Source: Geobacter sp. (GTDB lineage Bacteria; Desulfobacterota; Desulfuromonadia; Geobacterales; Geobacteraceae). Taken from it: a DNA stretch of 24,296 nucleotides. This document shows, one piece after another, positions 9,213-21,081 of the stretch. How positions within the stretch are numbered: the first letter of the stretch is position 1; the number at the start of each line of letters is the position of its first letter. The notes beneath the pieces were generated by a model that was not told the DNA's origin, ran no database searches, and was given only the letters and a program-made list of their open reading frames with translations. The DNA lies in the NCBI GenBank assembly GCA_003857395.1, contig RPRC01000123.1, positions 1-24,296 on the forward strand, in the 5' to 3' direction. The position numbers and the translations under genes were made by a program.

Positions 9213-9732
9213 ATTCCAAAAACCTTTCTGGTTTCGTGCTGATTAATATTTATACGTATTCATTCGCAGAAGCTCAGGTGCCGCTTCATGGTGAATCCGG
9301 ACCCGATGCCTGCCGACCCAGGAGGCAGTTTTGGTATGGCATTCTGCCCAATAAACAAAAATAGCAAAAGTAGAGGGTGCTGACAATTAAAACCTTGACA
9401 AATGATGGCCGAAAACGGTAATTCTCATTAAAACCTTTCTTGAGTAAAACCCTTTATCCCTGCAAGCCTGTTTGAATTTTTCCCAGATGGAAGCTGGTTG
9501 ACAAATAGATATTTTAATTGGGGAAACTTATTGCATCTTCGATCTAGTGTGGTATAAGTTCCCTCATGAGACTCTTGTACTTATTCACTTTTTGTCGTGA
9601 TGTCAGATGATGACAGAAGAATAGAGCTGAAAAAGGGGCTTGATGGCTGGGTTTCCCTTGCAAAAAACAATTCGGTCGTTACATTAAACTTGTCGTTTCA
9701 AGTATTTTCCAAGAACACGAAGAGGTGAAAAA
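9213..9732. other. Gene-free stretch with promoter-like motifs between prmA and the response regulator
   Basis: About 520 AT-rich bases separate divergent genes and contain no credible reading frame. Two copies of TTGACAAAT occur at 9395-9403 and 9498-9506. A TTGCAT (9531-9536) with a TATAAG (9553-9558) 16 nt downstream is the best-looking plus-strand promoter. A small palindrome TGTCA-GATGA-TGACA lies at 9601-9615. The stretch should hold the promoters of both prmA and the response regulator, with a 5' leader of about 170 nt if the 9531-9558 promoter is real. Confidence 0.5.
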
Positions 9733-10407
9733 ATGAAAATTCTGGTAGTGGAAGACGAAAAAAAGGTTGCCAGTTTTATCAAGCGAGGGCTTGAAGAAGA
9801 GAAGTATGAAGTGGATGTTGCCTACGATGGCGAAGAGGGCTGCCAGAAAATACTGGATGGCGCTTACAGTCTTATTATCCTTGATGTGATGCTTCCGAAA
9901 AAGGATGGTTTCGCGGTGGTCAAGGAAATGAGGATGAAAAAGCTTCAGACTCCGGTTTTGATGCTGACGGCGAAAGATACGGTTGAGGATATTGTTGCCG
10001 GACTTAACTCAGGGTCTGATGACTATTTGACAAAGCCGTTTGCTTTTGCTGAGCTCCTTGCCCGAGTTCGTGCCCTTCTTCGCAGGTCTGAGCAGGAGCG
10101 CGGCGCCGAAATCCGTTTCGCCGATCTGCGTCTCGATCCGGTTACCCACAAGGTTTGGAGGAACGACAAGGAAATCGACCTGACGGCGAAAGAATACTCG
10201 CTGCTGGAATTCTTTATGCGCAACCCGAACCAGGTGCTGACCAGGACCACCATTGCCGAGAATGTCTGGGATTATATCTTTGACAGCTTCACCAACATTA
10301 TCGACGTCTACGTCAATTACCTCCGCAAGAAAATCGACCGGGACGCAGACAAGAAGCTTATTCACACCGTGCGCGGCGTTGGTTACATTCTGAAGGAAGA
10401 AGACTAA
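9733..10407 (+). CDS. OmpR/PhoB-family response regulator, orphan
   Basis: This 224-aa two-component regulator has an N-terminal receiver domain (1-115) and a C-terminal winged-helix DNA-binding domain (about 128-222). The acidic pair Glu7/Asp8, phospho-acceptor Asp51 (IILDVMLP), Thr79 and Lys101 (YLTKPF) are all present, so the receiver should be functional. The effector ends with the usual VNYLRKKIDRD...HTVRGVGYIL motif. The ribosome site is AGAGGTG before the ATG at 9733. No histidine kinase gene is next to it: a strong terminator closes the unit after this one gene, and the following gene is an HtrA protease. It resembles CusR/CopR/MprA-type regulators, but the target genes are unknown. 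Confidence 0.9.
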   Translation: MKILVVEDEKKVASFIKRGLEEEKYEVDVAYDGEEGCQKILDGAYSLIILDVMLPKKDGFAVVKEMRMKKLQTPVLMLTAKDTVEDIVAGLNSGSDDYLTKPFAFAELLARVRALLRRSEQERGAEIRFADLRLDPVTHKVWRNDKEIDLTAKEYSLLEFFMRNPNQVLTRTTIAENVWDYIFDSFTNIIDVYVNYLRKKIDRDADKKLIHTVRGVGYILKEED

Positions 10408-18611: not shown

Positions 18612-18699
18612 GGAGAGATGTCCGAGTGGTCGATGGTGCCTGACTCGAAATCAGGTGTACGGCAACGTACCTAGGGTTCGAATCCCTATCTCTCCGCCA
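18612..18699 (+). tRNA. tRNA-Ser (anticodon CGA), with encoded CCA
   Basis: An 88-nt class II tRNA. The acceptor arms GGAGAGA and TCTCTCC pair fully, followed by discriminator G and an encoded CCA. The anticodon stem CCTGA/TCAGG holds the loop CTCGAAA, giving anticodon CGA for the codon UCG. A long variable arm (TGTACGGCAACGTAC) and a normal T arm (AGGGTTCGAATCCCT) are present. The 3' half is the likely attachment site of the island that follows. Confidence 0.97.
18672..18699 (+). other. Putative attL core in the tRNA-Ser 3' end
   Basis: P4-type integrases usually recombine within tRNA 3' ends. The T arm to CCA of tRNA-Ser directly precedes the integrase region. The second copy (attR) was not found in this window, so it should lie beyond the right edge. 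Confidence 0.5.
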
Positions 18700-18734: not shown

Positions 18735-18759
18735 AGCCCCGAGAAATCGGGGCTTTTTC
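18735..18759 (+). terminator. Intrinsic terminator downstream of tRNA-Ser
   Basis: AGCCCCGA (18735-18742) pairs perfectly with TCGGGGCT (18747-18754) around a GAAA tetraloop and is followed by a T-run. It ends the tRNA transcript and shields the integrase genes from it. Confidence 0.92.
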
Positions 18760-18794: not shown

Positions 18795-18864
18795 TTGACA
18801 TCCAGCCCGATCAGGGGTAGATTTGCAGCATCTACCCCTCCTACCAAAAATAGACTACCCCTGA
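18795..18864 (+). promoter_or_regulatory. Promoter with three TCTACCCCTGA-like repeats (operator or integrase arm sites)
   Basis: TTGACA (18795-18800) and TAGATT (18818-18823) with a 17-nt spacer form a good promoter for the two integrase-type genes. The motif TCTACCCCTGA occurs in reverse at 18821-18811, overlapping the -10 box, and forward in close variants at 18831-18841 and 18854-18864. The first two form a perfect 8-bp palindrome, GGGGTAGA/TCTACCCC. The forward copies are 23 bp apart, about two helical turns. This suggests binding by Int, by the neighbouring arm-domain protein, or by a repressor. Confidence 0.6.
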
Positions 18865-18901
18865 AAAGTCTGTAAAGCCTTGTGTAATGGGAGAACACGG
18901 C

Positions 18902-19327
18902 ATGTCTATGCGAATTTCCCCACTTTCCGAGACTGAAATTGAATCAGCCCTACCCTGCGATAAACCCATCAAGATGTTTGACGGTGCAGGCCTTTTCCTC
19001 CAAATTGAGACGAGCGGACGTAAGTTGTGGCGCTATAAATACCGCTTTGAAGGAAAAGAGAAACTGCTCTCATTTGGTAAATACCCCGATGTATCCTTGT
19101 CAGATGCTCGTCTGATGCGGGCGGAAGCGCGTCTCCTTCTCGGTAAAGGGATTGACCCTTCTTCAGCAAGGAAAAAAGAGACGTTGATACATGGGGCTAC
19201 GGAGGTGAAACCTTCTGTGAGGGTGGTCATGGATGGAACCATAGAAATTTGGAAGGGACGCTCCGTTCTTCGGTTTACTCAGGAAGAGGCGACATTCGTC
19301 AACAAACTTTTAAACAAACTGCTGTAG
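18902..19327 (+). CDS. Stand-alone integrase arm-binding-domain (DUF4102-like) protein
   Basis: This 141-aa protein has residues 1-92 closely resembling the N-terminal arm-type DNA-binding domain of the integrase encoded next door (shared FDGxGLFL, WRxKYRFxGKEKLL, YPxVSLSDAR, IDPxxARK). It has no core-binding or catalytic domain. Instead a distinct tail of about 45 residues follows, with a predicted strand-strand-helix pattern (VVMDGTIEIWKGRSVLRFT, then a Leu-rich helix). The stop codon is in frame and the tail has clean composition, so it looks like a real small gene rather than a truncated integrase. The ATG at 18902 is preferred over 18887 because GGGAG lies 8 nt upstream. It ends 11 bp before the integrase start, so both are one operon. 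A role as directionality factor, repressor or Int competitor is inferred. Confidence 0.75.
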   Translation: MSMRISPLSETEIESALPCDKPIKMFDGAGLFLQIETSGRKLWRYKYRFEGKEKLLSFGKYPDVSLSDARLMRAEARLLLGKGIDPSSARKKETLIHGATEVKPSVRVVMDGTIEIWKGRSVLRFTQEEATFVNKLLNKLL

Positions 19328-19338
19328 CGAGGTGACCT

Positions 19339-20574
19339 ATGGCACTGACAGACGTTAAAGTCCGCAACGCAAAGCCCACTGAAAAACAGTTCAAACTCTT
19401 CGATGGTGACGGTTTATTTCTTCTTGTAATGCCACCCGGCAAGAAAACTCCGAACGGTAGCAAGTGCTGGCGGTTTAAGTATCGTTTCGGCGGCAAAGAA
19501 AAGCTCCTAGCTCTCGGAACGTATCCGGAGGTAACCCTTTCAGACGCTCGCGACAAAAGGACAGAGGCCCGACGCCTGATAGCCGCTGCTATCGACCCTG
19601 GAGAAGCCCGGAAAGCCCGTAAGGTGGCAAATGCTGAGAAGGCGGCGAACACCTTCGAGGTTGTGGCCCGGGAGTGGTACGGCAAGAATGAACCAGTATG
19701 GAGCCCGTCACATGCTGTTATGGTGATAAGCCGTCTTGAAAAGGATGTGTTCCCGGTAATCGGCAGTAGACCTATCTCGGAAATCAAGGCCCCTGAGGTT
19801 TTGCGGATGCTGCAGAACATCGAGGCCCGGGGAGTGATTGAAACGGCCTACCGTATCAAGATTGTTTGCGGCCAAGTGTTCCGGTATGCCACGGTGACCG
19901 GGCGGGCCGATGGAGACCCCACGACGGCATTGAAGGGAGCGCTTTCAAAGCGGCTGGTAAAGCACCATGCCAGTATCACGGACCCGAAAGAGGTAGCGAG
20001 ACTTCTGAAGGAGATAGACGCTTATCAGGGCGGATTTGTCGTGAAGAGTGCCCTACGCCTTGCCCCCCTCGTCTTTGTCCGTCCAGGTGAGCTACGGAAA
20101 GCGGAATGGGCGGAAATCGACCTTGGGAATGCCGAATGGAACATCCCGGCGGAAAAAATGAAGATGAAGCAACCGCACCTTGTACCCCTTTCCAAGCAAG
20201 CGGTTGAGATTCTTCGTGAACTACAGCCGGTTACCGGGAGTGGGAAGTATCTCTTTCCTGGCCGCGCCTCAAAACCGATGAGCGAGAACGGAATAAATGC
20301 CGCCCTGCGATACTTGGGATATGATAAGGACACCATGACCGGCCACGGTTTCAGGGCGATGGCAAGGACGATCCTCGACGAGGTCCTACAGGTCCGGATT
20401 GACTTCATTGAGCATCAACTGGCCCACGCCGTCAAAGACCCGAACGGCCGAGCCTATAATCGGACGTCTCACCTTGCCGAGCGCCGGAAGATGATGCAGA
20501 CATGGGCCGATTATCTGGACGGTCTCAAGAGCGGGGCGAAGGTTATACCGTTAACTGGTCGGACGTCCCGGTAG
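19339..20574 (+). CDS. P4-type tyrosine integrase
   Basis: This 411-aa site-specific recombinase inserts and excises the island at tRNA-Ser. Its domains are an arm-binding DUF4102-type region (1-92), a SAM-like core-binding region (about 103-195) and a catalytic domain (about 210-395). Catalytic residues visible are Arg248 (FVRPGELRKAEW), His336 and Arg339 (GHGFRAMARTIL), His363 (LAHAVKD) and the nucleophile Tyr373 (RAYNR), so it should be active. GAGGTG precedes the ATG at 19339. It follows the arm-domain protein by 11 bp. The normal length and complete motifs suggest a mobile rather than decayed element. Confidence 0.95.
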   Translation: MALTDVKVRNAKPTEKQFKLFDGDGLFLLVMPPGKKTPNGSKCWRFKYRFGGKEKLLALGTYPEVTLSDARDKRTEARRLIAAAIDPGEARKARKVANAEKAANTFEVVAREWYGKNEPVWSPSHAVMVISRLEKDVFPVIGSRPISEIKAPEVLRMLQNIEARGVIETAYRIKIVCGQVFRYATVTGRADGDPTTALKGALSKRLVKHHASITDPKEVARLLKEIDAYQGGFVVKSALRLAPLVFVRPGELRKAEWAEIDLGNAEWNIPAEKMKMKQPHLVPLSKQAVEILRELQPVTGSGKYLFPGRASKPMSENGINAALRYLGYDKDTMTGHGFRAMARTILDEVLQVRIDFIEHQLAHAVKDPNGRAYNRTSHLAERRKMMQTWADYLDGLKSGAKVIPLTGRTSR

Positions 20575-20809: not shown

Positions 20810-20844
20810 GTTAATCCAACAAAGAAACCATGGAGGCGGTTCGA

Positions 20845-21081
20845 ATGGAAATCATCGTAGCCAAACCAACCTTGCCGGAAACGGGCTTTGTCCGGCTCCC
20901 CCACATCATCGGCAATCCCAAGGCCAATCCACCGATCCCCCCGATCATTCCGGTCTCCAAGAGTACCTGGTGGGCCGGGGTCAAGTCCGGTCGGTATCCG
21001 CAACCGGTAAAGCTCGGCCCGAAGATTACAGCCTGGAAAATTTCAGATATCCGGGCGCTTATCGAAGGACAGCCCACATAG
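20845..21081 (+). CDS. AlpA-family helix-turn-helix regulator
   Basis: This 78-aa small DNA-binding protein has a winged-helix/MerR-like fold of the AlpA (phage CP4-57 regulator) type. The motifs FVRLPHIIG, PVSKSTWWAGVKSGRYPQPVKLGP and TAWKISDIRALIE match the standard AlpA pattern (strand, HTH, RxPxPxKLGxxxxxW). An insertion, roughly NPKANPPIPPIIP, lies between the first two motifs and is unusually proline-rich. The ATG at 20845 is chosen because GGAGG lies at 20832-20836, inside the longer frame that begins at 20830. AlpA relatives activate excision or integrase genes, or bind island origins. It is followed after 10 bp by the primase-like gene. Confidence 0.88.
   Translation: MEIIVAKPTLPETGFVRLPHIIGNPKANPPIPPIIPVSKSTWWAGVKSGRYPQPVKLGPKITAWKISDIRALIEGQPT

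Follow-up and report, generated by a model that had tools for sequence, protein, structure and literature searches.

The window, by which we mean the whole 24,296-nucleotide stretch of Geobacter sp. DNA that was analyzed, contains a small gene between a tRNA gene and an integrase gene, all on the forward strand. ARAGORN identified the tRNA gene as tRNA-Ser(CGA) (18612–18699, forward strand), which is the attachment locus on the attL side; a partial 3′ copy of it is present in the closest relative element. The small gene (18902–19327, forward strand) starts 202 nt after the end of the tRNA gene and has an open frame for a protein of 141 amino acids. A second in-frame ATG at 18887 would give a 146-amino-acid form, and most relatives use the start equivalent to 18902. 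The integrase gene (19339–20574, forward strand) begins 11 nt after the end of the small gene and encodes a full-length P4/SXT-type tyrosine integrase of 411 amino acids, in which Pfam identified Arm-DNA-bind_3, Phage_int_M and Phage_integrase domains. By gene arrangement, the small gene and the integrase form a closely spaced unit of two genes in which the small gene comes first, in keeping with a preliminary description of this DNA that had placed both in one operon. Downstream of the integrase are a primase-like gene and a gene for an AlpA-like small HTH protein, a candidate excisionase (20830–21081, forward strand), whose match to PF05930 (E = 5e-4, 20.3 bits) is slightly under the cut-off of 21.

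The small protein consists of an arm domain and a conserved tail. Pfam detected PF13356 (Arm-DNA-bind_3) at residues 13–98 of the 146-amino-acid form with E = 2e-24, and its 86 bits pass the curated cut-off of 27. In the 141-amino-acid form the arm domain covers residues 8–93 (18923–19180, forward strand). Fold searches with the arm part matched its predicted structure to the solved arm domains 3ju0, 3jtz and 3rmp, and the domain shares 53% identity with its counterpart in the neighboring integrase, bearing out the proposal that the N-terminal part is a paralog of the integrase N-terminal domain. As had also been claimed, Pfam found Arm-DNA-bind_3 alone, with no core-binding or catalytic recombinase domain in the 146-amino-acid open reading frame; the neighboring integrase has both. 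Neither Pfam nor PHROGs detected an AlpA- or HTH-type domain in the small protein at E ≤ 1, and such a match is found instead in 20830–21081; we consider the AlpA-like protein the likelier excisionase of the two. The tail (19211–19324, forward strand), identified from the alignment of relatives and from structure prediction, comprises about 38 residues that follow a linker of variable length, and is predicted to form β strands and a C-terminal helix. It is distinct in that it had no match in Pfam, PHROGs or NCBIfam.

A sigma-70-like promoter for the small gene and integrase (TTGACA-N17-TAGATT, 10/12 matches; 18795–18823, forward strand) shares its −10 box with the first of three GGGGTAG repeats, and the other two are directly downstream. 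The first, O1 (18814–18820, forward strand), emerged from the repeat and promoter searches and has its TAG within the −10 box. O2 (18832–18838) and O3 (18855–18861), found by the repeat search, are inverted, on the reverse strand, with O3 23 nt from O2. These candidate arm-type sites or operators correspond to the repeats that had been noticed at 18811–18864. GGGGTAG occurs five times in the window compared to 2.2 expected, and three copies within 50 nt were found in none of 2000 base-composition shuffles. A hairpin scan also revealed a single terminator-like hairpin just inside attL (18735–18754, forward strand), a number no higher than in shuffled sequence; a GC hairpin with a T-run after the RNA gene is visible by eye at other loci too.

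Many integrases without the small gene are also preceded by repeats with G-runs like those in the window. We analyzed sites at 63 of the 80 loci kept from a genome scan with the whole small protein, after manual exclusion of tail-bearing loci, truncated frames, a near-duplicate and some further loci. Of the 63, 51 had two or more typed sites and 12 were not typeable; 47 of the 51, all within L002–L080, had a long enough integrase. In all 47, which are no random sample because the peptide words of the scan favor arm domains with YRFEGKEK, the base after GGGG follows one arm-domain residue, located just after KEK: Leu or Val accompanies T sites (GGGGT, 28 of 28), and Arg or Lys accompanies C sites (GGGGC, 19 of 19). 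Mutual information between this residue and the base is 0.97 bit (z = 22.5), compared to z = 4.7 for the best position outside the arm domain. Site type requires 11 changes on a tree built from the other domains, with arm columns left out, and the residue switched with site type in six of six independent well-supported pairs (sign test, p = 0.031).

Because the base follows the arm residue in every classified integrase, we interpret the GGGG[T/C] repeats as arm-type sites read by this class of domain, which agrees with their earlier designation as integrase arm sites. That one arm residue predicts GGGGT or GGGGC is, at the level of sequence, a recognition rule for the arm-type sites of this integrase family. 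Such a rule would make these sites predictable from sequence and is directly testable. In the window, the residue is Leu in both the small protein (Leu55, 19064–19066, forward strand) and the integrase (equivalent residue Leu56), and the sites have T. The promoter is thus overlapped by sites of the class that the small protein's DNA-binding domain belongs to, as assigned through integrases rather than through the small protein.

To the small protein we could add 35 other proteins with an arm domain and tail, of which 34 were aligned (47–99% identity). A second tail subtype comprised 12 proteins, one of them from the query locus itself. A search with the tail alone had been suggested; we used tail profiles in five sets of genomes. 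Matches were found in four of 277 genomes in the class of the closest relative (after removal of one false hit), three of 395 in a sample of its phylum, six of 399 in the order of a Dechloromonas genome (after one removal), two of 199 in the family of that genome, and nine of 155 in the class of G498. As genomes overlap between these counts, they amount to 21 distinct genomes. One more, a Nitrospinae MAG (L019), came from the 80 loci of the whole-protein scan, bringing the genomes with this gene to 22. In a search for tail-only regions, a method of limited reach, the seven matches, including the query, all carried an arm domain. Two profile matches were dropped: one in G221 (E = 3e-5), in a 471-amino-acid open reading frame that reads like a sensor kinase, and one in G999, where 24 residues matched in a 44-amino-acid frame and re-reading of the region revealed nothing. 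Whole-protein tblastn with query P0006 gave matches in 230 plasmid records and 277 phage records; a Comamonas plasmid match, among the best 10 of the 230 plasmid records, was an ordinary integrase. No tail was present at 19 viral-contig loci found with the same query, and two further viral scans gave no confirmed relative. The type I tail had no match in plasmids, and the type II tail had none in plasmids or phages.

A P4/SXT-type integrase, or its beginning, is directly downstream on the same strand in 21 of the 22 genomes. It is complete in 15 (L001, L019, L058, L091, L093, L098, L099, L129–L132 and L149–L152), truncated at a contig end in four (L144, L145, L147 and L148), and interrupted in two (L128 and L146). 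At L092, the small gene (9363–9860) has no adjoining integrase; by eye, the sequence upstream of it looks like the terminal part of a reverse transcriptase from a group II intron. A gene for tRNA-Ser, -Leu, -Ala, -Thr, -Val or -Met, or for tmRNA, is upstream in 20 of the 22 genomes, the exceptions being L092 and L151, in which only 85 nt of contig precede the open frame of the latter. Two of these loci, L148 and L149, resemble one element in two genomes. At 16 loci where spacing was measured, the small gene and the integrase overlap by up to 14 nt or are up to 13 nt apart, and in several copies the integrase ribosome-binding site appears, by eye, to be inside the end of the small gene, which suggests translational coupling. 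Thus, the two-domain form first described from one locus represents a genuine family that accompanies P4/SXT-type integrases inserted at tRNA and tmRNA genes.

The small gene is unbroken in 18 of the 22 genomes. The possibility that relatives would have one full-length integrase, with the window gene a frameshifted fragment of it, is therefore rejected for the family, as the relatives carry a separate small gene beside a separate integrase. Four copies (L093, L131, L145 and L146) have a frameshift within the arm domain, and the tail frame stays open. Real decay and assembly error cannot be told apart in these four; because of them, the small gene may be dispensable or the islands may be decaying. 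These copies would also fit a functionless leftover of integrase duplication, but the small gene recurs at the same position in distant bacteria and its tail is conserved, making this explanation extremely unlikely. Tail dN/dS was below 1 in all 30 computable pairs of 49 small-gene pairs, many of which were saturated, and tail dN was lower than arm dN in 42 of the 49. Examples of tail dN/dS are 0.024/1.09 for L098–L147, 0.023/0.12 for L149–L151, 0.065/0.465 for L129–L130 and 0.16/2.06 for the window and L144. The small genes of the window and L001 differ by four replacement changes and one silent change and are too close for an estimate of selection. These values indicate that the tail, far from being unique to one genome and unconstrained, is under purifying selection.

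Both tail types are predicted to form a β-hairpin followed by a helix. Profile comparison supports their homology weakly (E = 0.0034, probability 9.5%), and the case for it lies in the order, position and predicted topology that the two have in common. A single origin of the type I small proteins was not rejected (p-AU = 0.72) on a tree of only 86 columns. In two tmRNA-inserted elements, L129 (4788–5144) and L130, the arm regions of the small proteins are 46–76% identical, the tails are 83–91% identical, and the integrases are 88–98% identical in all 60-column windows but one (71%). This combination of a low arm identity with high tail and integrase identities indicates that the arm module was exchanged.

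Among 16 loci with the small gene and a readable integrase, the reading residue of the integrase is Leu or Arg at 11, all of which fit their sites by eye, and Gln, Thr or Met at the remaining five. Leu is present in 18 of the 34 aligned database relatives of the small protein. We read 17 small proteins together with their sites, leaving out the four frameshifted copies, L148 (a copy) and L001 (a near-copy). In 13 of the 17, the residue is Ser, Asn, Cys, Thr, Met or Gln, none of which is found in the 47 classified integrases. Of the other four, the window protein has Leu and L144 has Ile, both with T sites, and two small proteins contradict the relation: L019 has Arg yet T sites, and L092 has Leu yet mixed sites. 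The residue differs between small protein and own integrase in 13 of 16 pairs, so the two proteins may not always share sites. Site sharing is well supported for the window, with its matching residues and sites, and less certain for many relatives.

Small-protein arm domains were 51.4% identical to those of their own integrases and 48.8% to those of others (permutation p = 0.001, with kinship not controlled and the L144 integrase mis-framed), a difference too weak to prove co-evolution. In L091 and L132, the small protein and integrase both carry an unusual Thr at the reading position and are near each other in the arm-domain tree (supports 90–91, unstarred), a hint of co-evolution or gene conversion.

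We sought attR in 11 elements, many of them on short contigs; it was seen in L001 and L091 and not found in the other nine. One more candidate attR is in genome G498. L001, the closest relative element, is 92% identical to the window over 7.4 kb. It has a degenerate copy of the tRNA 3′ end (18 nt, three mismatches) 22.6 kb from attL, after GGGGTAGTTTTTGGGGTATATAAG, and GGGGTA sites near this attR. L091 has an exact copy of the tRNA end 7.0 kb away, after GGGGTGTATTTGGGGGTGTC. In the elements with both ends seen, there are thus arm-type sites at each end, and the promoter is overlapped by those at attL. L091 has GCGGGTG as its attL operator and GGGGTG and GGGGGTG at attR, and G498 has CGGGTA at attL and two copies of GGGGGTA at its candidate attR. 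This difference of CGGG from GGGG or GGGGG, in L091 and possibly G498, may mean that the operator has been adapted to the small protein. A repressor with an operator of its own, unlike the sites of the integrase, would account for these differences and also for the replaced small-protein arm between L129 and L130, whose integrases are nearly alike outside one window. We nevertheless consider it very unlikely, as GGGGTA is common to attL and attR in the closest relative of the window, and the GGGGTAAC repeats are unchanged in L129 and L130 despite their unlike small-protein arm domains.

The presence of arm sites at both ends of the relative element could reflect an architectural cofactor, which would fill some arm sites to let the integrase assemble a productive intasome and would thus favor integration or excision instead of blocking it; for a stoichiometric partner of this kind, the close pairing of the two genes would be fitting. 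However, the small gene was present at only three of the 80 scan loci, some of which had little upstream DNA, so that integrases of this type usually manage without it. In addition, AlpA-type genes above the Pfam cut-off follow the integrase in L091, L093, L129 and L134 (14 relatives were inspected by eye and five open reading frames run in Pfam). A cofactor role thus seems unlikely.

Several elements with the small gene use tRNA-Ala(CGC) and several use tmRNA, as expected if the small protein of a resident island covered arm sites on like islands that arrive later, and so blocked tandem integration at the same RNA gene. Defense genes on the closest relative island could also be counted in favor of such exclusion. 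Nothing specific points to it, however, and sequence does not separate it from repression; we regard it as quite unlikely. The 22.6-kb island of the closest relative (L095:192–9537, L155:15776–19952) encodes QatABCD and type I restriction-modification subunits, together with an RmrA-like protein and a PDC-S25 protein that also resembles ThsA, more weakly. It is a defense island, and the window ends before that part. With these genes aboard, the switch may govern the movement of a defense island.

The promoter geometry, the domain of the small protein and its recurrent pairing with an integrase argue for a dedicated arm-site occupant that acts as both repressor and competitor. The small protein is probably an autorepressor that would bind O1–O3, perhaps as an oligomer through its tail, although oligomerization is a guess. 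When bound, it would repress transcription of its own gene and that of the integrase and, on the attL arm sites, would compete with the integrase and keep the island integrated. In elements that have only an integrase, sites overlapping the promoter would be occupied by the integrase; here, this duty may have been split off to a recombinase-free protein. The preliminary description had envisaged an arm-site occupant that either sets the direction of recombination or represses the operon. Occupancy and repression fit the arm-type sites on the promoter and the common reading residue in the window; direction-setting is less favored, because the downstream AlpA-like gene is the more obvious directionality factor.

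More tentatively, and with a little less than even confidence, we propose that the small protein exemplifies a previously undescribed class of catalytically empty mini-integrases. In these, a duplicated arm domain with a β-hairpin-helix oligomerization tail would have taken over arm-site occupancy and operon repression, the arm being exchangeable independently of the tail and the integrase. If so, the two jobs of the integrase arm domain, site occupancy and recombination, would have been separated in nature, which would offer an easy way into the question of how genomic islands are kept quiet.

AlpA, Vis and TorI are small HTH-type proteins that are not derived from integrases. Like these excisionase-regulators, the small protein is small and encoded by an island or phage; unlike them, it is integrase-derived, and the window has an AlpA-like gene as well. 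By profile and predicted fold, its first ~90 residues are the arm domain (DUF4102/Arm-DNA-bind_3) of genomic-island integrases such as those of HPI and HAI7 (3jtz, 3ju0, 3rmp). Those proteins carry the domain at the N-terminus of a full recombinase, whereas the small protein has it by itself, followed by a new tail. In the open-licence literature searched, we found no published description of a recombinase-free arm protein, in line with the preliminary description, which knew of no role for this two-domain form. DUF4102 integrases are presented as characteristic of the IntSXT subgroup in PMC8138268, the consulted passages of which do not contain the term stand-alone.

The closest parallels are KplE1 IntS and P4 Int, as described in the available portion of one study (PMC2951348). 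As in the window, a tRNA gene, an int promoter under arm sites and the integrase follow one another in one direction, with the intS −10 sequence of KplE1 overlapped by one of the IntS arm sites. The intS gene is repressed by its own product, self-regulation through binding at similar positions is described for P4 Int, and the same is predicted for integrase genes with a promoter inside the attachment region (PMC2951348). Single arm-site mutations in KplE1 left repression intact and the site in the −10 box was inseparable from promoter activity (PMC2951348), so that repression through arm sites is not cleanly proven even there. Expression of int is also lowered by TorI and Vis (PMC2951348). Thus, in KplE1 and P4 the integrase itself represses, helped by TorI or Vis, whereas in the window a separate arm-domain protein precedes the integrase.
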